Source: Spartobacteria bacterium UBA6821 (GTDB lineage Bacteria > Verrucomicrobiota > Verrucomicrobiia > Chthoniobacterales > UBA6821). From it: 13,655 nt of DNA. Position numbers and translations under genes: made by a program. The notes under the pieces were generated by a model. That model ran no database searches. It worked only from the letters and a program-made list of their open reading frames with translations, and was not told the origin of the DNA. Below are positions 1 to 7,990 of the stretch, piece by piece. Position 1 is the first letter of the stretch. The number at the start of each line of letters is the position of its first letter. The stretch covers positions 1,009-14,663 of the forward strand of contig DKEN01000086.1 of assembly GCA_002452515.1 (NCBI GenBank), in the 5' to 3' direction.

Positions 1-3000
1 AGACCACCACGTGCCAATCCGTCGCCTCCATTCCCTGCCACAAGGACTTCTGCAGTCGATCCTGCGGTACTGTTGACGGAGTTTAGATTGCCACCAGCTC
101 CGCCGGTAGCGCCGTAACTGAAACCACCTTCACCGGCGATGATGCGATTGTAACCATAGTAGGGATCTGAGCGCCCGGATGAGGCTGACACCGAAGAGAT
201 GGAGCCACCTGCACCGCCATTGCCCGTGATACCGGTGCCTCCATTGCCAGCGAGAATTGAAATTTCCGAGACGGCTGAAGCAGCAGTTGATTGATTTGTG
301 AAATTGCTCACTGAACCACCGGTTCCACCCGAAAGTCCATTTCCTCCCTCGCCAGATTGAATCACAATCTCACCACCCAGGTAGTTGGTCGTGCTGATGG
401 GACTGCTATTGATCACCGAGCCACCTGTTCCTCCGGCTCCAGCCATGGCACTTCCACCCGCACCGGCCGTATAGGAGAGGTATCCCCCATTGAAACCAAT
501 GTCAGAACCACCGTTTGTAGGTGGGAACAATGGGGCAAATCCTGTAATGTTGCCACCGGTTCCACCACTGACAACCCCACTCCCTCCGTTACCGGCAACT
601 AAGTAAATTTCACTCTCGTAGGTGGTATAACCAGCGGTTCCCGAGGTTCCGTTAATAGTGCCTCCGTTTCCACCCTGATATCCTGATCCACCATCCCCAG
701 CGACGAAGTTGGAACCTCTCTGCGCTTGGAATGTGGAAAGACTCCCCCCATTCCCTCCTTTGCCAAAGAAGCCCGTGCCGCCCTGAGCCGCCACCAAAGT
801 AAAGCCTCCGGACAAGGTTGTTGCCGTTGGGTCAAATTGCAGCCTCAAGCCACTCAGAGAGCCACCATTGCCACCACTGGTCAAACCGTTCCCGCCATCA
901 CCGGCGACGAGCGTGACAAAAGGTTGATCCTGCCAAATCACCGGCAGCGTCACCGTGATGGAAGCCGTTGTCCCTGTCAGAGATCCATTGCCAATGGAGC
1001 CTCCCGCTCCTCCCGCGCCAAGGTCCGAATTGCCACCGGATCCGGCAGCTATCTGGATGGCATAATCAATGAGTCCCTGATTAACGATGACTGGCATACC
1101 ACCAATGTGGTTCACAGCGTAGGTACCCACTCCACCGATCAGGTAAGGGTCAAATAAATTGTAACCATCGCCATTGGAAGTGGGCTTGGCAGCGATATAT
1201 CCGAACGTCGTCCCCGCAGTCACCAGCGGCGCATAGCTGGTGGCTCCTAGTGTGGAAGTCGCGTCATTATTATAGAGGCCGAAAGCAACGATTGCCCCGT
1301 CATAATTCCCTGTCGCAGGTGCGTACTGGTCGCCAACTCTAGTAAGTACCTGCAGATCAGCATCGTAGGTAAGGTTAGCTTCACTATAAAGCTGACCGCC
1401 AGGTGCCAGATCAAACGTATAAAATGCTGTGTTCGCTGTTGCATTGGTATAAAGGGCAAACTGGGTTGGATCGGCACCACCAAAACTACCGGCAACGATT
1501 CCCTTGAAATCAACATTGGAGCCAGTGCCCAGAAGTGTATCTTTACCGACTAGGGTGACACCTGAAGTTTCGTTCATGCTGGCAACACCTGCAATTGGAT
1601 CATAAGTCCCGGAAAAGAGACTCACCGCATTTCCCGCATCCAGAACCACCACGTCAAAACTGTCTGGTGTTAACGACCCAGTTTGAGTGATCCCCGTAGT
1701 GATGGCAATGTCGATGGGAGTTGCGTTATAGCTTGAAAAGCCAATGATGACACTTTTGTCAAAATCAGCAGTGGCATAGGTGGGCGTCACTCCAGAACCC
1801 TGCAGGTGTCCTGAGACATCCTGGAGCAAGGCGACAAACCCGTCACCAGTCGTAGGGATACCGGCCAGCACCAGCACATCCGATGCGGCATTCCCCGCTT
1901 GTGCCGCTGTGGCCTTCAGCTCAAACTGACCATGTCCCAGGTACTCCGTCCCTCCATTAAGGACCGGCATCTTGGTGTCCTGACCAGTGAGGCTGTTGTA
2001 GGAAAAATTAGCAAAGAAGTGCCCATCTCCTGTCCCATCAAGCACCACCGCCGTGGTTGCGGGTTGGATGCTACCGTTGTAGTAATAAACCTGTTGGGTG
2101 TAGGCCAGACCCATGATCGGTTGACCCGCATGGGGACTGCCTATGGGATAGACAGCACCATTAAAATCTCCGGTCACCAGATTGGTGATGGCTCCACCGC
2201 TGGCCAGGAAGCCCTGATTGACAAGATTTGGCAGGGTTGAGTGAAGGGAGGAATCGATGAAATTTCCCCCTGTCGTGGAAGTGGCCTCCGTCCCCCAGAT
2301 GCTGACACCTGTGGTGGGGTCGTTTCCGGGATTCATAAAAACGCTGATCCCGGTGTTGTTGTTTGGTAGCGACGAGGCGACGGCAATATCCAGAATCGGG
2401 GTGCCATCGGGATAGGTTGCTCCATTAAAATCCCCCACGGTGATGGCTGAGGTGCTGGTGTCCAGTGAGTTCAATCCGGGAACAGCCAGATAGAGCACCG
2501 GGGAAGCGTTGGTAATCCCCGCAGCCGACCCAAAAACGATGCCCAGCTGATCGGGTGAGTTGGTCATGAACACCTCATCGGCGTACCCATCGTTGTTGAA
2601 ATCAATCAACTTCGGCGTTCCAATGTCGCCCGCTGCGCGGTAGGTCGTGACGACGGCAACCGCGCTCGCAAATCCCCCTGCGTCGGTCGGCGTCAGAGTC
2701 CCGGTTGAAATGCTGGCTCCGGGTCCGGCATTTCCGAGAGCGTTGCCTCCATTCCCCAAGTCGAAATTGATGTTTCCATTCATGGAAAATTGCCCGAGCG
2801 AAAGCGTGCCTGCGGCACCGCCCGCGCCAAGGAAACCCACCCCGCCGCTTCCTGTCTTGATCTGGACGAGACCTTCTACCGAACCGACGTCCGAAAGATT
2901 CGTGATGGAACCACCGTTACCTCCCTTGCTTCCATCGCCGCCGTTACCAGCCTGAATGCGCAACCCTCCGCTATCGCCGTCAAGTGCCACATTGCTGATG

Positions 3001-3992
3001 CTGCCCCCATTGGCCCCGATGCCACCATCGCCTGCAACGATCCCATTGATCGTGAAGGGTACTGGGCTGGCACCTGTGGTGGTGCTCGCGGTGGCGCTGT
3101 TAATCGCGGAGATTCCGATAATATTGCCACCTGCCACTTCCACTCCCGGTGTGTAGGTCTTGAGTGTGCCACCCTCTTGGAGATCACCGGGATTATGGAG
3201 AACTATAGGAGGGAGATTTGGGTCAGCAGGGTTTGGTGTTGTGATTGTGGTTGAGTAATATCCGAAACTGAAGCTGTTTCCACCGGCGGCGGTTCCCGTC
3301 TTCCCGGCGCCAATGTAGGGAATGACACCGGAAACCTGATAATACGAGGTAGTTATGCCATTGAAATTTGCGACTTGGGCGGCGGTTCCCGCCGTGTCAA
3401 TCGTGATACCATCCCCAGAGGCACCATCCCCAACACCCCCTCCGGCATAGATGTTGCCATAGATGGAATAGTTACTGGGAGCAAGATGGGTCAGGTAATT
3501 GACCCCCGCAGGAACATCGGCTTGTGTCAGAGAACGCAGGGTGATCGCGTCGATCGTGGAGTTCAGCAATAAGAGGCCATCATGCCCGGTAGGATTACTC
3601 CCATCGGAATTCGAGAGAGTCCCATTCGCCTGCAGGTTTGTCACAATGTCGCCATTAATATTGACGAAGGAAGTCAGTTTCAGCCCGTTGCCCGCGGAAA
3701 TACCGGTGATGTCGTTGTAATCGAACTTATTACTCCCGTTGACATCAGTTGTATAAATCAATGCCTCACCCTGAGTGACGGCCATGAGATAGACTCCGTT
3801 CGCCTTGAGTCCGTGACCCGCCGTCAGGAGTTGGGGGGTCCCGAGGGTGACATCGATGTAAGTGATGCCTGCCAACCCCGCTGGAGCGATGCGGGATTCA
3901 AGGGATTCTAGGAATGATCTCGCCGGTCTGGTCATTTTTGGGAAAGAAGGAGTGTTCTTTTTCACGAGGGGGGGAGTCGTTTTGAGGTTCAT
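1..3992 (-). CDS. Giant glycine-rich beta-strand-repeat protein with LEPR-like N-terminus and embedded FG-GAP/VCBS-like region; partial at 3' end
   Basis: Reading the minus strand from the ATG at 3992-3990, the frame has no stop down to base 1, so 1330 codons are visible and the C-terminus is missing. Residues about 26-38 read SFLESLESRIAPA, a LEPR-type motif in which Pro is replaced by Ser. Residues 83-94 (DVNGSNKFDYND) resemble an EF-hand loop, followed by NINGDIVTNL at 111-120. Residues about 315-435 hold four AGxGG...GGS(I/V) units. Residues about 440-970 contain FG-GAP/VCBS-like motifs (DFNNDGYADEVF at 464, DFNGATYPDG at 521, DFNGAVYPIG at 609), suggesting a beta-propeller. From about 980 to the edge there are ten more glycine-rich units. 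The N-terminal third is paralogous to the gene just upstream. ATG at 3935 (residue 20) is an alternative start that would put the motif nearer the N-terminus, as in the paralogue. Probable role: exported surface or adhesive protein (inference). No enzymatic motif was seen. Confidence 0.9.
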   Translation of the reverse strand, partial: MNLKTTPPLVKKNTPSFPKMTRPARSFLESLESRIAPAGLAGITYIDVTLGTPQLLTAGHGLKANGVYLMAVTQGEALIYTTDVNGSNKFDYNDITGISAGNGLKLTSFVNINGDIVTNLQANGTLSNSDGSNPTGHDGLLLLNSTIDAITLRSLTQADVPAGVNYLTHLAPSNYSIYGNIYAGGGVGDGASGDGITIDTAGTAAQVANFNGITTSYYQVSGVIPYIGAGKTGTAAGGNSFSFGYYSTTITTPNPADPNLPPIVLHNPGDLQEGGTLKTYTPGVEVAGGNIIGISAINSATASTTTGASPVPFTINGIVAGDGGIGANGGSISNVALDGDSGGLRIQAGNGGDGSKGGNGGSITNLSDVGSVEGLVQIKTGSGGVGFLGAGGAAGTLSLGQFSMNGNINFDLGNGGNALGNAGPGASISTGTLTPTDAGGFASAVAVVTTYRAAGDIGTPKLIDFNNDGYADEVFMTNSPDQLGIVFGSAAGITNASPVLYLAVPGLNSLDTSTSAITVGDFNGATYPDGTPILDIAVASSLPNNNTGISVFMNPGNDPTTGVSIWGTEATSTTGGNFIDSSLHSTLPNLVNQGFLASGGAITNLVTGDFNGAVYPIGSPHAGQPIMGLAYTQQVYYYNGSIQPATTAVVLDGTGDGHFFANFSYNSLTGQDTKMPVLNGGTEYLGHGQFELKATAAQAGNAASDVLVLAGIPTTGDGFVALLQDVSGHLQGSGVTPTYATADFDKSVIIGFSSYNATPIDIAITTGITQTGSLTPDSFDVVVLDAGNAVSLFSGTYDPIAGVASMNETSGVTLVGKDTLLGTGSNVDFKGIVAGSFGGADPTQFALYTNATANTAFYTFDLAPGGQLYSEANLTYDADLQVLTRVGDQYAPATGNYDGAIVAFGLYNNDATSTLGATSYAPLVTAGTTFGYIAAKPTSNGDGYNLFDPYLIGGVGTYAVNHIGGMPVIVNQGLIDYAIQIAAGSGGNSDLGAGGAGGSIGNGSLTGTTASITVTLPVIWQDQPFVTLVAGDGGNGLTSGGNGGSLSGLRLQFDPTATTLSGGFTLVAAQGGTGFFGKGGNGGSLSTFQAQRGSNFVAGDGGSGYQGGNGGTINGTSGTAGYTTYESEIYLVAGNGGSGVVSGGTGGNITGFAPLFPPTNGGSDIGFNGGYLSYTAGAGGSAMAGAGGTGGSVINSSPISTTNYLGGEIVIQSGEGGNGLSGGTGGSVSNFTNQSTAASAVSEISILAGNGGTGITGNGGAGGSISSVSASSGRSDPYYGYNRIIAGEGGFSYGATGGAGGNLNSVNSTAGSTAEVLVAGNGGDGLARGG

Positions 3993-4001
3993 GGCGCTGG
4001 G

Positions 4002-7000
4002 CTAAACGGCAAGGGGAACGGTGGGCAGATAGAGACCATAGCCCGAGGTTTGGCTGGAGTCCGTGGTGAGGAACGCGGTTGGTGTTAAATTACGCGCCTG
4101 GGTCAGCGTCAGCGCCGCGATGAGTCCATCGAGCGGATCCGTTGTGCCGAGCGTCCAGGCAGATGAACCCGAACCGGAAGGCGTCAAGAAACCGGTTGTT
4201 GTCTGGAAGTAGTCCGCTCCTCCTGTCGTCGGACTGCCAGCCTTGCCGCCGACAAGATTAGCCGAGTAGAAATTGCTGTAGGATCCGTCAAGGTTCGTGG
4301 TCAACGCCGTGGAGCCTCCGAGATAAAGGGCATCGACCTTGTTCACGAGTTGCGGCGAGGCCGCGCGTCCGGCAACGATCGTTGAAATTGCCTGAGCGGT
4401 GATGTTGGTGACATTGCCGGCCAGGCCGGATGTCTTGGCAGGAAGTGCCCCGGCGTTGCCATTCACGCCACCTATTCCGGCGAAAATACCGCCCATCGCG
4501 CTCCCATCGGTTGCAAAGCCATAATTTTCACCGGTCCGAATACCGATGTCTCCGGCCACATTGACATTGGTCACACTTCCTCCAAGGGCCGCCTTCACTG
4601 TCGCGCTGCCACCGACCGAACTGGTGATGTTCCCGCCGTTACCAGCTGCGATGGCATTGACAATGACGCTCGCCGAAGACGATATCTTGTTCACACTTCC
4701 TCCAAGTCCTGCGGCAGCCGTGCCGCTCCCGCCGTCTCCGGCCTGGACTGAAAATGCCTGTTCTCCTCCATAGATGCTGAGTCCAGTGAAGGATCCTCCT
4801 GCACCGGCCTTGCCGCCAGTTCCACCTGCACCTGCACTGAAGACAGCGGAATCAGCCGCGTTGATGTCCGTACTTGTGTAACCCGAAGCATTCGTCACAT
4901 TTCCACCGCGACCCGCCAGTGTCGTGGCGGTGATGGCATCGCCACCGGATCCCGCAATCACGGAAAGAGTTCCCGTGGACCCCAGTGTTCCTGTTGCTCC
5001 AGTGAAGGCCACCTGGGAGATATCTCCTCCGTTGCCGCCGATAGATCCGGCCCCTGCCTGGAAAGCAATACTACCGAGCGCCAAGGCGCTTGCATTGAAA
5101 ATCGAGCCGCCTGCAGCTCCCGTGGATGGCGTCGTCCCGAGAGCGGCTGCACCAGCATCACCAGCCTGGATGGTGACGGAGGATTGCAGCGATTTCGCGA
5201 TGATGCCCTGTGCTATTGTCGAGGAACCAATAGATCCACCTGCGCCGATCTTGCCTTTGTTGCCTTCAGAGCTTCCACCCGTGCCTGCGACAAGGTTCAC
5301 GGCATCCTGCACCTGAAGATTAGCATTGGTGATGGCCCCTCCTGCTCCAGCGGTGCCGGTCCCGCTGCTGTCGCCACCGAAACCGGCTATGAGCGTCGCG
5401 GTCTGGGTATTCCCCCCCGCGTCGGGCACCAGTGCACTGAAGGCAATCCCTGAGAGCGAACCTCCCTTTCCACCGCTCCCCGTAGCGCCCAACACACTTC
5501 CCCCATCACCGGCAGTAGCAGCCAGTGAAGCCATTGCTGTATGGCCCTCCGAGGAATCGTTTTTGATGAAGTAATTGAACGATTGCATCGATCCGCCCGC
5601 TCCGCCGCCTTTGAAGCCATCCCCTCCGTTGCCAGCCTGTGGGCTCAGGCTGACATAGGACCCAGTACCGGAATCAAAGATCGTTGTGGAGTTAATACTG
5701 CCTCCAGCCCCGCCGATGCCACCCGTGGTTCCGTTGCCAAGGGAGTCGCCTCCTGTACCAGCAGTAAGGGATAGGGTAGTCAGCGTCGAGTTGGGAGCTG
5801 AAATTCCAGAGATCGTGCCTCCTGCGCCACCGTTGCCGGTAAAGGAAGAGCCGCCCGATCCTGAGTTCACGATCAGACTTTGAAGATATTCGTCCGCAAA
5901 CCACCCGAAATTGAGATTGCTCACAGAACCTCCGGCACCACCGCCGGATTGGGTATTGGAACCGTTGCCCCCCTGGAAAATAAACGACTCTCCTGTGAGT
6001 GGCCCGAATTGGCTGGGAAGTGTCACGCCACTGGTATTGATCACGGATCCCCCCACCGCACCAGTTCCCAAAACGGGAGTTCCTGCGTTTCCGGCGGAAG
6101 CATCACCTCCAGCCACATAGACCGTAGAAGGGGGCGTCGTTAGGGGATCACCATAGACATCATCCTGAATGTTGAATGTGGTCACTGATCCCCCGGATCC
6201 GGCTTTTTTCCCGGCAGTAAAGAGAGTTCCACCATCACCACCGAGAACCTGAATATCAAAGGCACCCGGTGCGGAAAGCGGGGTGGCGGTGAGGAGGGTT
6301 GTATTTGTCACAGCTCCACCGTTGCCGGCAGTCGCTCCAGCGCCGCCATCACCCCCTTGCACCGTCACATCACTTTGCAGCAAGTTGGTCGAGGCCACGA
6401 TGGCCTTACCACTGTATTCGTATCCTACCCAGACTTTGCTTACTGCGCCGCCACTTCCGCCAGCCCCGGCACTACCGGAAATCGCATCCCCTCCGACTCC
6501 CCCAGCAATCAAAATCAGGTCGTTATTGCTGCTGTCAGCCACCCCCTTTATCACGACTTGGGAGACGGCACCACCTGCACCCCCATTGATGGAGGAACCA
6601 AGACCAGCACCACCATTACCACCCTGAATCGTCATTCCAGTAGCATCTGACGTAAGTGTCACATTCGCGATGCTCCCACCGGCGGCTCCCGCACCACCTG
6701 CACCGGCATAAAGTCCCGTTGAATTCCCCACCGTGATGTTGGAGAGACTTCCGCCGGTAAGTTTCGCGGCAGGAAGAAGCCCATTCCCCTGCGAGCTGTC
6801 GCTGCTGAACTGGGTGAGATCACCGAATCCCACGCCTGCATAGCCTCCGAAAGTATAATACGTATTGGCGGCGGTCAGTCCGCTCTGCACAGTCCCATAG
6901 ACAATACCGGCGCTGACGTTCGAAATGGACCCTCCGGCGATGATGCTGCCAGAGATAGGATTCGAACCGGCAGGCCCATCCCCTGCACTAGAGGAGCCAA

Positions 7001-7580
7001 CATTCCCACTCATAGTAATGGAGCCGATGCTCTGCTTGTTGGAGATCAGGTTATCTGCGGAGATGGTCCACGTGGCTGGATTGGAAAGCGTCTTGGCGAT
7101 CAGATTGTCTACGATATCGCCGTTCACATTCAGGCCGGTAGAGAGCGCAATCTTGGCCCCCGAACTCAGCGAGATTCCGGAGATTTCGTTGGCCTGGGGA
7201 ACACCATCGTGGTTGTAGTCGGTGAAAAAAACCTCCGCCGCACCTCCCGCCACACTGATGGAACTGCCGAACCCACCGGAAGAACCCGGGGTGTAGATCA
7301 GGAGCGTGTCGCCACTCTTCAGCGGAATGAAGTAATTATCCGAAGTGAAGCCCGTAAGGGTGCCAGTGCCCGGCTGAATCGCAACAGCGGATGCTTTCCC
7401 AAAGAGTGTAGATACTGGGTGTGCCGGCGCATTGTTGCTTGCGTCTCCATACTGATAGGTATTATGGCTACCGGCAGGGACAGGATAGGCGGTGCTGCCA
7501 GCAGAAACAGGGCCCGCATAAATGACGGCAGGCGCAATGCGGGGTTCGAGCGATTCGAGAAACAACCGGGGAAGAGACAT
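4002..7580 (-). CDS. Giant glycine-rich beta-strand-repeat protein with N-terminal LEPR motif
   Basis: A complete 1192-residue frame. The N-terminus LFLESLEPRIAPA (residues 7-18) is a LEPR-type motif, known at the N-termini of large putative surface proteins of Planctomycetes and Verrucomicrobia and suspected to be a sorting signal. No classical signal peptide is evident. Residues 121-132 (DYNHDGVPQANE) fit the EF-hand loop pattern with D1, N3, D5, G6 and E12. NVNGDIVDNL follows at 151-160. Residues about 285-1050 hold roughly 19 units, each a short hydrophobic strand, then AGxGG, a variable loop, GGAGGS(I/V) and another strand. This pattern suggests a beta-solenoid or a polyglycine-type sheet. 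The C-terminus (about 1050-1192) is non-repetitive and has neither an autotransporter barrel nor a PEP-CTERM tail; it ends LPTVPLAV. The stop is 9 nt before the start of the downstream paralogue, suggesting one transcript. The start lacks a Shine-Dalgarno sequence. Exact function is unknown; surface structure or adhesin is inference. Confidence 0.93.
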   Translation of the reverse strand: MSLPRLFLESLEPRIAPAVIYAGPVSAGSTAYPVPAGSHNTYQYGDASNNAPAHPVSTLFGKASAVAIQPGTGTLTGFTSDNYFIPLKSGDTLLIYTPGSSGGFGSSISVAGGAAEVFFTDYNHDGVPQANEISGISLSSGAKIALSTGLNVNGDIVDNLIAKTLSNPATWTISADNLISNKQSIGSITMSGNVGSSSAGDGPAGSNPISGSIIAGGSISNVSAGIVYGTVQSGLTAANTYYTFGGYAGVGFGDLTQFSSDSSQGNGLLPAAKLTGGSLSNITVGNSTGLYAGAGGAGAAGGSIANVTLTSDATGMTIQGGNGGAGLGSSINGGAGGAVSQVVIKGVADSSNNDLILIAGGVGGDAISGSAGAGGSGGAVSKVWVGYEYSGKAIVASTNLLQSDVTVQGGDGGAGATAGNGGAVTNTTLLTATPLSAPGAFDIQVLGGDGGTLFTAGKKAGSGGSVTTFNIQDDVYGDPLTTPPSTVYVAGGDASAGNAGTPVLGTGAVGGSVINTSGVTLPSQFGPLTGESFIFQGGNGSNTQSGGGAGGSVSNLNFGWFADEYLQSLIVNSGSGGSSFTGNGGAGGTISGISAPNSTLTTLSLTAGTGGDSLGNGTTGGIGGAGGSINSTTIFDSGTGSYVSLSPQAGNGGDGFKGGGAGGSMQSFNYFIKNDSSEGHTAMASLAATAGDGGSVLGATGSGGKGGSLSGIAFSALVPDAGGNTQTATLIAGFGGDSSGTGTAGAGGAITNANLQVQDAVNLVAGTGGSSEGNKGKIGAGGSIGSSTIAQGIIAKSLQSSVTIQAGDAGAAALGTTPSTGAAGGSIFNASALALGSIAFQAGAGSIGGNGGDISQVAFTGATGTLGSTGTLSVIAGSGGDAITATTLAGRGGNVTNASGYTSTDINAADSAVFSAGAGGTGGKAGAGGSFTGLSIYGGEQAFSVQAGDGGSGTAAAGLGGSVNKISSSASVIVNAIAAGNGGNITSSVGGSATVKAALGGSVTNVNVAGDIGIRTGENYGFATDGSAMGGIFAGIGGVNGNAGALPAKTSGLAGNVTNITAQAISTIVAGRAASPQLVNKVDALYLGGSTALTTNLDGSYSNFYSANLVGGKAGSPTTGGADYFQTTTGFLTPSGSGSSAWTLGTTDPLDGLIAALTLTQARNLTPTAFLTTDSSQTSGYGLYLPTVPLAV
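4571..4706. repeat. 16-bp exact direct repeat pair inside the repeat protein gene, 120 bp apart
   Basis: The 16-mer TCACACTTCCTCCAAG occurs at 4571-4586 and again at 4691-4706. The offset is exactly 120 bp, or 40 codons, and both copies encode the LGGSV part of the glycine-rich unit. Most other units share protein but not nucleotide sequence. This pair may therefore be a more recent duplication or gene-conversion tract, or simply codon coincidence in a glycine-rich motif. Confidence 0.7.
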
Positions 7581-7990
7581 TGGGGGAGAAAGGGGTAGTT
7601 AATTATCTGCGAAGCATACCGTAGCCAGTTTTATCGCGCGCGCATCTTTTTTTTTCACCACATCAACTGATTTTGAAGAGCAGACACTTTTTCTTAAGGC
7701 GGTCGATTGCGGGCGGACAAGCTGGTCAGCAGGAACGCACCACATCTTTTCCCGAGCTAAGGTCATGTCTCTCACACAGAGTGTCATCAGAGTCATCATT
7801 GATTGCCGTATCACAAAAAAACGACCCTCTCCTGAAGGCACCAACCCAACAAAACAAAGAGATCCAAAATCAGCATTATTAATGAGTTAGGAAAAATCGT
7901 GTTGCCCGAAATGATGGAGATACCGATTGACAGGAAAGCATCCTTGACCTACTACCGCTGGTGACAGTCCATCCACAAACCACAAACCAA
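7581..7990. other. Divergent intergenic region between the repeat-protein operon and the outer-membrane barrel gene
   Basis: About 410 nt without a convincing gene. The short frames here have no family resemblance and no start context. It holds a promoter candidate for the rightward gene (7927-7955), a CG-alternating tract beside a T-run (about 7634-7654), a direct repeat GTCATCA at 7783-7789 and 7792-7798, and an 11-bp AT-rich palindrome CATTATTAATG at 7874-7884 about 40 nt upstream of the promoter. The latter two could be operator sites, but nothing else supports that. No clear -35/-10 pair was seen for the leftward operon; the best -10-like string is GATAAT on the minus strand near 7600-7605, without a good -35. 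Confidence 0.6.
7927..7955 (+). promoter_or_regulatory. Sigma70-type promoter candidate for the outer-membrane barrel gene
   Basis: A perfect -35 hexamer TTGACA lies at 7927-7932, then a 17-bp spacer and a weak -10 (TACTAC, 7950-7955, 3 of 6 matches). Transcription would start near 7962, giving a leader of about 29 nt before the ATG at 7991. If so, the in-frame GTG at 7961 would sit at or before the transcription start, which supports the downstream ATG. Confidence 0.5.

Follow-up and report, generated by a model that had tools for sequence, protein, structure and literature searches.

Paired glycine-rich giant proteins of a Verrucomicrobiota lineage as possible cargo of an M50-HlyD exporter

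We analysed a 13,655-nucleotide stretch of DNA from Spartobacteria bacterium UBA6821 (the window), which lies on contig C114 in a genome of 2.35 Mb and 153 contigs, and asked what is encoded by two adjacent genes, A and B, that specify very large glycine-rich proteins. The reading that we favor, and to which we give an even chance, is that A and B fold into beta-helix rods, are exported, and serve as cargo of an exporter built around a fusion of an M50 protease with HlyD, a variant of a gene module described in 2015 (PMC4452313). This cargo hypothesis was reached because A and B form a co-evolving pair that is linked to the exporter genes in some loci and co-occurs with them in many genomes. 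We infer both the export and surface location of the two proteins and their working together outside the cell as cargo of this exporter. The original prediction had proposed that co-transcribed giant proteins co-assemble at the cell surface, for example as an adhesin, sheath, or S-layer-like structure. As a co-transcribed, exported system it stands in part, and co-assembly into such a structure would be a further conjecture; export is favored indirectly by genes resembling a type I secretion system (T1SS) in 4 of 15 loci, co-occurrence, an acidic and cysteine-free composition, and beta-helix and propeller models.

In the mechanism that we propose, A and B would be structural proteins of large size, co-transcribed in one Verrucomicrobiota lineage, in which an N-terminal module carrying the motif LExLExRIAPA (the tag) and a C-terminal module flank a beta-helix with glycine-rich loops, with a propeller present in B. 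A T1SS-like exporter would carry both proteins across the envelope, probably in one step, using an M50 protease-HlyD fusion in the inner membrane, a short HlyD protein, a GAF-HlyD adaptor, a TolC-type OEP channel, and a DUF3467 protein. Outside the cell, the pair may form a rod-like adhesin or matrix, with A as the scaffold and B presenting the propeller. The features on which this argument draws are listed below in window coordinates.

4002..7580, minus strand: gene A, complete, 1192 amino acids (aa), first gene of the pair; N-module, glycine-rich repeats predicted to form a beta-helix, C-module
7527..7559, minus strand: tag of A, LESLEPRIAPA, residues 8-18; E9, L11, E12, and R14 to A18 invariant in 36 rows
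7185..7220, minus strand: EF-hand-like loop of A, DYNHDGVPQANE, residues 121-132
4611..6707, minus strand: glycine-rich repeat block of A, residues 292-990, beta-helix-like in the model
4005..4613, minus strand: C-terminal module of A, residues 990-1192, matched to B residues 1420-1633
3993..4001, minus strand: intergenic gap of 9 bases, A stop to B start
1..3992, minus strand: gene B, of whose 1633 residues the first 1330 fall in the window; the 3' end is outside it, at C114:99
3879..3911, minus strand: tag of B, LESLESRIAPA, residues 28-38; E32, R34, A36, P37, and A38 invariant in 34 rows
3711..3746, minus strand: EF-hand-like loop of B, DVNGSNKFDYND, degenerate, residues 83-94
2703..3035, minus strand: first glycine-rich repeat block of B, residues 320-430
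1116..2672, minus strand: modelled beta-propeller of B, residues 441-959, FG-GAP-like in homologues
1..1046, minus strand: second glycine-rich repeat block of B, residues 983 onward, to the window edge

The coordinates agree with the original description of two adjacent genes 9 nucleotides apart, and because of this short gap A and B are probably co-transcribed. Gene B is not complete in the window, which corrects the first reading; it extends 910 bases past the window start, and its 1633 aa include two undetermined residues (X) where a 2-base N gap lies immediately beyond the window. The contig ends 98 bases after the stop of B. Both proteins are acidic and lack cysteine (A: pI 4.27, 21% glycine; B: pI 4.16, 18% glycine), and neither is strongly hydrophobic at its N-terminus as judged by hydropathy computation only (maximum 12-residue mean over the first 80 residues of 1.43 in A and 1.53 in B). 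At either end (positions 1 and 13655) the window borders an N gap of the contig, C114:1007-1008 and C114:14664-14684, respectively.

Searches at E <= 1e-3, in which B was represented by residues 1-1330 and 120 matches were listed for each gene, returned at least 272 homologues of A and at least 332 of B. Among the matches listed, the few with an organism name all belong to Verrucomicrobiota, including Chthoniobacterales, Chthoniobacteraceae, Chthoniobacter, and Terrimicrobiaceae, and most are unnamed or annotated as "hypothetical protein". An A-type gene is followed by a B-type gene on the same strand in 14 of 15 relative loci from metagenome-assembled genomes, with A or B truncated at the end of the sequence in some of the loci. 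L019, the exception, holds a lone A-like gene and comes from the isolate whose L018 locus has the pair. The distance from A stop to B start in these relatives runs from 36 bases to apparent overlaps of 86 bases, the larger overlaps depending on the choice of the first possible start codon, and complete A-type proteins span about 1.1 to 2.8 thousand residues. A and B diverge in step, as a co-evolving pair, with their pairwise identities across 13 pairs correlating at r 0.962 (0 of 5000 permutations as high). The check suggested with the original prediction, namely whether such pairs recur in tandem, thus came out positive in these loci and also among the database matches, where 38 of the 120 listed A matches have a longest-contig size equal to that of a listed B match, where a control with jittered sizes averaged 0.3 and never exceeded 3. 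L011, L017, and L020 share other neighbor clusters as well (among them starch synthase, arginyl-tRNA synthetase, and a tail-specific protease in L011), which we read as ordinary synteny.

Alignments of the two families (36 A and 34 B sequences) were compared by hhalign module by module. The N-modules matched with an E-value of 4e-23 and the repeat blocks with 3e-35, in agreement with the N-terminal module and repeat consensus that had been noted as common to both genes, and the C-modules matched at 2.8e-8, which adds a common C-terminal module to that description. Mismatched controls gave only 0.28 (N with C), 0.026 (C with N), and 0.51 (repeats with propeller). By these profile comparisons, A and B are thus paralogous in the repeats and at either terminus. 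Their internal architecture differs, as had also been observed: B residues 441-959 model as a beta-propeller, and no such match was obtained in the A model. With respect to FG-GAP or integrin-alpha-type propeller proteins, the B homologue P0127 matches PF01839 and PF13517 above cut-off and the B profile matches cartilage acidic protein 1 (E 1.1e-5); unlike in such proteins, the modelled B propeller is inserted between glycine-rich beta-helix blocks. The model of B that shows the propeller covers the N-terminal two-thirds of the protein.

Glycine autocorrelation peaked at lag 3 in both proteins (A 0.154, B 0.128), exceeding the maximum of 500 shuffles (A 0.121, B 0.11). In A, a further peak at lag 41 (0.127) also lay above its shuffle maximum of 0.121, while the second peak of B, at lag 32 (0.102), fell under the maximum of 0.11. 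TRF found no DNA-level tandem repeats in the window. Taken with the structure models, these profiles lead us to predict that A and B contain a beta-helix built on glycine-rich loop turns, to which B adds the propeller. The lag-3 periodicity would also fit ice-binding or other polyglycine-II matrix proteins, in which glycine-rich flat faces rather than adhesion were selected, and the top Foldseek match was indeed a springtail antifreeze bundle of polyproline-II helices (E 0.026, probability 0.35). However, this match is weak and the best second-look match of the A model covers 453 residues of a beta-helix adhesin, so we regard an antifreeze-type role as highly improbable. A comparison of the A profile with PDB sequences returned two chains (E 0.029 and 0.7), which were judged noise.

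The beta-helix prediction also raises the possibility that A and B are two-partner-secretion adhesins, that is, EtpA-like beta-helix exoproteins that pass through a TpsB barrel. The predicted rod is indeed of a size similar to that of TpsA exoproteins such as EtpA. Nevertheless, Pfam and NCBIfam contained no family at E <= 1 for A or B residues 1-1330, nor did Pfam detect a two-partner-secretion or haemagglutination-activity domain there at the same cut-off; the structural match begins only after the tag module; the N-terminus differs; and no TpsB-type family was found in the 30 neighbor proteins scanned, the linkage in some loci being to HlyD/M50 genes instead. The gene near the pair that resembles an outer membrane protein (OMP) is also found in two congeners without the pair. 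We regard two-partner secretion, too, as highly improbable.

Clustering of the neighbors in the 15 loci brought out the gene set that bears on the export of A and B: in 4 of the 15 it lies beside the pair, and Pfam identifies its members as GAF-HlyD, HlyD, and M50 peptidase-HlyD. The order in L008 is DUF3467, GAF-HlyD, HlyD, M50-HlyD, A, B, and that in G091:C13 (L009 and L099) is A, B, GAF-HlyD, HlyD, M50-HlyD, OEP; L007 and L016 hold part of the latter arrangement and then reach the contig end. A DUF3467 gene recognised by Pfam stands before the set in L008 and before A in L011, and L014 and L017 have members of the same BLAST cluster; a PDB sequence search with DUF3467 gave nothing convincing (best E 0.15). 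The gene after M50-HlyD was scanned in three loci and is OEP in all of them, both next to the pair (L099) and at two exporter loci away from it (L086 and L091). In the window's own genome, DUF3467, GAF-HlyD, HlyD, and M50-HlyD follow one another on a different contig, C74 (locus L085; 10.4 kb), which ends about 0.5 kb past M50-HlyD. Three of these genes carry HlyD families above the Pfam cut-offs, the M50 match reaches 34.6 bits (cut-off 27.2) and the GAF_2 match 29.1 bits (cut-off 28.6), and the M50-HlyD protein retains the HEFGH motif. As in a T1SS, L085 holds HlyD-type membrane fusion proteins; an outer membrane factor (OEP) gene was seen in the three relatives scanned, one of them beside the pair, and not on C74; no ABC transporter was present among the 7 of 8 L085 open reading frames (ORFs) scanned, the genomes not having been searched for ABC exporters. 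Divergent from the exporter genes on C74 are two overlapping NHL-repeat ORFs of 184 and 1142 aa (L085:5881-9860), possibly one gene split by a frameshift or an assembly error.

We assessed the association between the pair and M50-HlyD across 213 genomes of the order, scoring the best 2 to 5 candidates per genome, such that further copies may be overlooked. Eighteen genomes were pair-bearing (A at >= 200 bits or B at >= 400 bits); G042, G107, G122, and G127 were counted from one gene only, and gene A is cut by contig ends in G106, G121, and G131. M50-HlyD at >= 500 bits was found in 16 of the 18 pair-bearing genomes vs 2 of the 195 others (Fisher p 5e-20), and at E <= 1e-20 in 16 of 18 vs 15 of 195 (p 8e-14), both values being uncorrected for phylogeny. 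Of the two pair-bearing genomes with no M50-HlyD match, G121 has a contig that ends inside the neighboring GAF-HlyD gene (L016). At E <= 1e-20 the profile matched 31 genomes in total and 0 of 15 congeners and 0 of 6 confamilials of the window's genome. Among database matches, 26 of the 120 listed for M50-HlyD have a longest-contig size equal to that of a listed A or B match (control mean 0.6), and 19 of these 26 contigs are under 50 kb. One contig size, 19,290 bases, is recorded both for P0124 (a B match, 56%) and for P0243 (an M50-HlyD match, 70%). Judging by identical contig sizes, the genomes behind L007-L021 overlap the G-numbered genomes, so the locus count and the genome-profile counts are not independent.

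The tag LExLExRIAP, with L, I, V, F, or M as its first letter, occurs within the first 120 residues of 115 of 120 A matches and 117 of 120 B matches listed. Large proteins with LEPR-type domains, such as NCBIfam NF012209 (LEPR-8K), which we take to be the LEPR-XLL domain, characteristically carry a short LE.R motif close to the N-terminus. The tags of A and B resemble it in their position near the start of a large protein (residue 8 in A, residue 28 in B), but neither N-terminus matched the NF012209 model (cut-off 17 bits) at E <= 10, and the single match across the own genome, on contig C18, scored 15.1 bits, below that cut-off. Of 39 places where a strict tag pattern occurs in the 213 genomes, 15 in relatives were translated: 13 hold tagged proteins (18 in all, one a 256-aa fragment at a contig end), mostly large proteins other than A and B, with 3 of the 13 places glycine-rich like the pair. 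The pattern match in L075 was not a real tag on translation, and L076 held no tagged protein. Some of the other tagged proteins (L062-L074) look by eye CSLREA-like or cyclophilin-like, names that we apply presumptively. Further glycine-rich A-like proteins with a variant tag and no B partner in view are encoded at L018:733-2892 and L019:147-5282. The original prediction of a sorting-type N-terminus common to the pair was correct in that the module is common to both proteins; it is not specific to them, given the presence of the tag on other large proteins.

Our boldest reading is that the tag may act as the targeting signal for the exporter, a proposal that draws on co-occurrence alone. LExLExRIAPA would then be the N-terminal address of a one-step export built on M50 protease-HlyD, with neither an ABC transporter nor a dedicated SecA, and A and B would be its signature cargo; we consider this doubtful. 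If true, the reading of this address would define a distinct Verrucomicrobiota secretion system that is gained and lost along with its cargo.

Several observations weigh against the M50-HlyD set as the exporter of A and B. The two lie on separate contigs in 13 of the 16 genomes that hold both, the own genome included, and on the same contig in only 3 (G083, G093, and G091), of which G083 and G093 are closely related, at 98% in M50-HlyD. G026, which is 96% complete, has the pair and no M50-HlyD match, and in G099 and G126 M50-HlyD occurs where no strong match to the pair was obtained. The bit-score cuts were set after the scores had been seen, and no phylogenetic correction was applied. With respect to gene identity, only the own genome has an M50 match over the Pfam cut-off; those of the three scanned relatives fall under it, as the GAF match of L008 does under its own, and no OEP gene was seen on C74, the rest of the own genome not having been searched for it. 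The strict tag pattern is weak evidence by itself, with its 39 places comparing to 27 for a reversed-pattern control; it also overlooks tags starting with I or V. G082 encodes a large tagged protein and yielded no match to M50-HlyD, which argues against an exclusive tag-exporter link. A MacB_PCD/FtsX permease gene lies right after B, in convergent orientation, in L012 (16107-17483, minus strand), and a BLAST relative occupies the same place in L018 (16081-16635, minus strand), so an ABC-type partner is conceivable.

These points could be accommodated if A and B were exported surface or matrix proteins that take another route and the HlyD/M50 set had other cargo, the two belonging to the same mobile or lifestyle gene pool. 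Besides the separate contigs and the permease gene adjoining B, the patchy distribution of both the pair and the exporter set and the further tagged proteins in the same genomes favor such a scenario. In contrast, the direct adjacency of the pair to exporter genes in 4 of 15 loci and the 26 of 120 M50-HlyD matches that share a longest-contig size with A or B argue against it, and we judge another route to be unlikely, if the most serious of the alternatives.

The proposed M50-HlyD export of A and B is best compared with the work of Kamneva et al. (2015; PMC4452313), who described a secondary SecA_DEAD protein surrounded by genes for M50/HlyD, HlyD, and GAF-HlyD in bacteria of the Planctomycetes-Verrucomicrobia-Chlamydiae (PVC) group and others. 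The passages on the HlyD/M50/GAF module term its broader role completely unknown and name no giant-protein cargo. The set studied here resembles the module in bringing M50 peptidase-HlyD, HlyD, and GAF-HlyD together, with OEP in some loci and a weak M50 similarity, and differs from it in that the own-genome set has DUF3467 and no secondary SecA was found. In the own genome (86% complete), SecA_DEAD matched one frame, of 1038 aa, and the set linked to the pair accordingly looks like a relative of that module without SecA. Among 22 genomes searched, second, shorter SecA frames were present in G131, G036, and G122, and G120 had only a short one. In G120, a lower-scoring M50-HlyD paralogue (G120:C122:23715-27088) is adjoined by a short SecA_DEAD gene, as in the PMC4452313 module.

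Very large genes are also known from planctomycetes, where genes over 5 kb are partly annotated as surface proteins (PMC5352709). A and B are likewise very large genes of a PVC phylum, and they differ in size (3.6 kb and 4.9 kb, the latter just under 5 kb) and in forming a defined, conserved two-gene unit. Among the matches listed in a search of titles and abstracts of open-licence PMC papers, none describes the pair or names it as cargo. Giant PVC proteins and the T1SS-like module are each of known kinds, and they are joined here into one testable system. With the pair, the HlyD/M50/GAF set acquires a specific hypothesis for its cargo and a candidate signal at the N-terminus, and a group of giant Verrucomicrobia proteins gains a defined family, an architecture, and a possible route outside the cell.

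The distribution of the pair is patchy. The A profile matched 21 of the 213 genomes of the order (the window's included, some by fragments only), in 12 of 45 genera, and 1 of 22 genomes in the window's family, with no match in 15 congeners and 6 confamilials; among 387 genomes drawn across the phylum it matched only the window's own, a draw that held few of the order's other positives. This absence from close relatives could suggest a misbinned contig, or cytoplasmic or unexpressed genes. However, identity of the flanking ribBA amounts to 80-83% in the 8 congeners searched, whereas full-length matches elsewhere reach 77% at most (78% in one 74-residue fragment). In addition, synteny of mnmA and ribBA holds in 3 of the 3 congener loci that were compared, and that of the OMP-like gene in 2 of the 3. 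On these grounds misbinning was rejected and the contig does not look foreign; the A and B ORFs are also open and have many homologues, and we consider this group of explanations the least probable of all. Given the absence of the pair from congeners, the syntenic flanks, and a different gene at the site, the pair was either gained here or lost by the relatives. That different gene encodes 120 aa and stands beside the OMP-like gene at the site of the pair in two congeners (G009 and G021; L058 and L061, compared with window positions 7581-7960).

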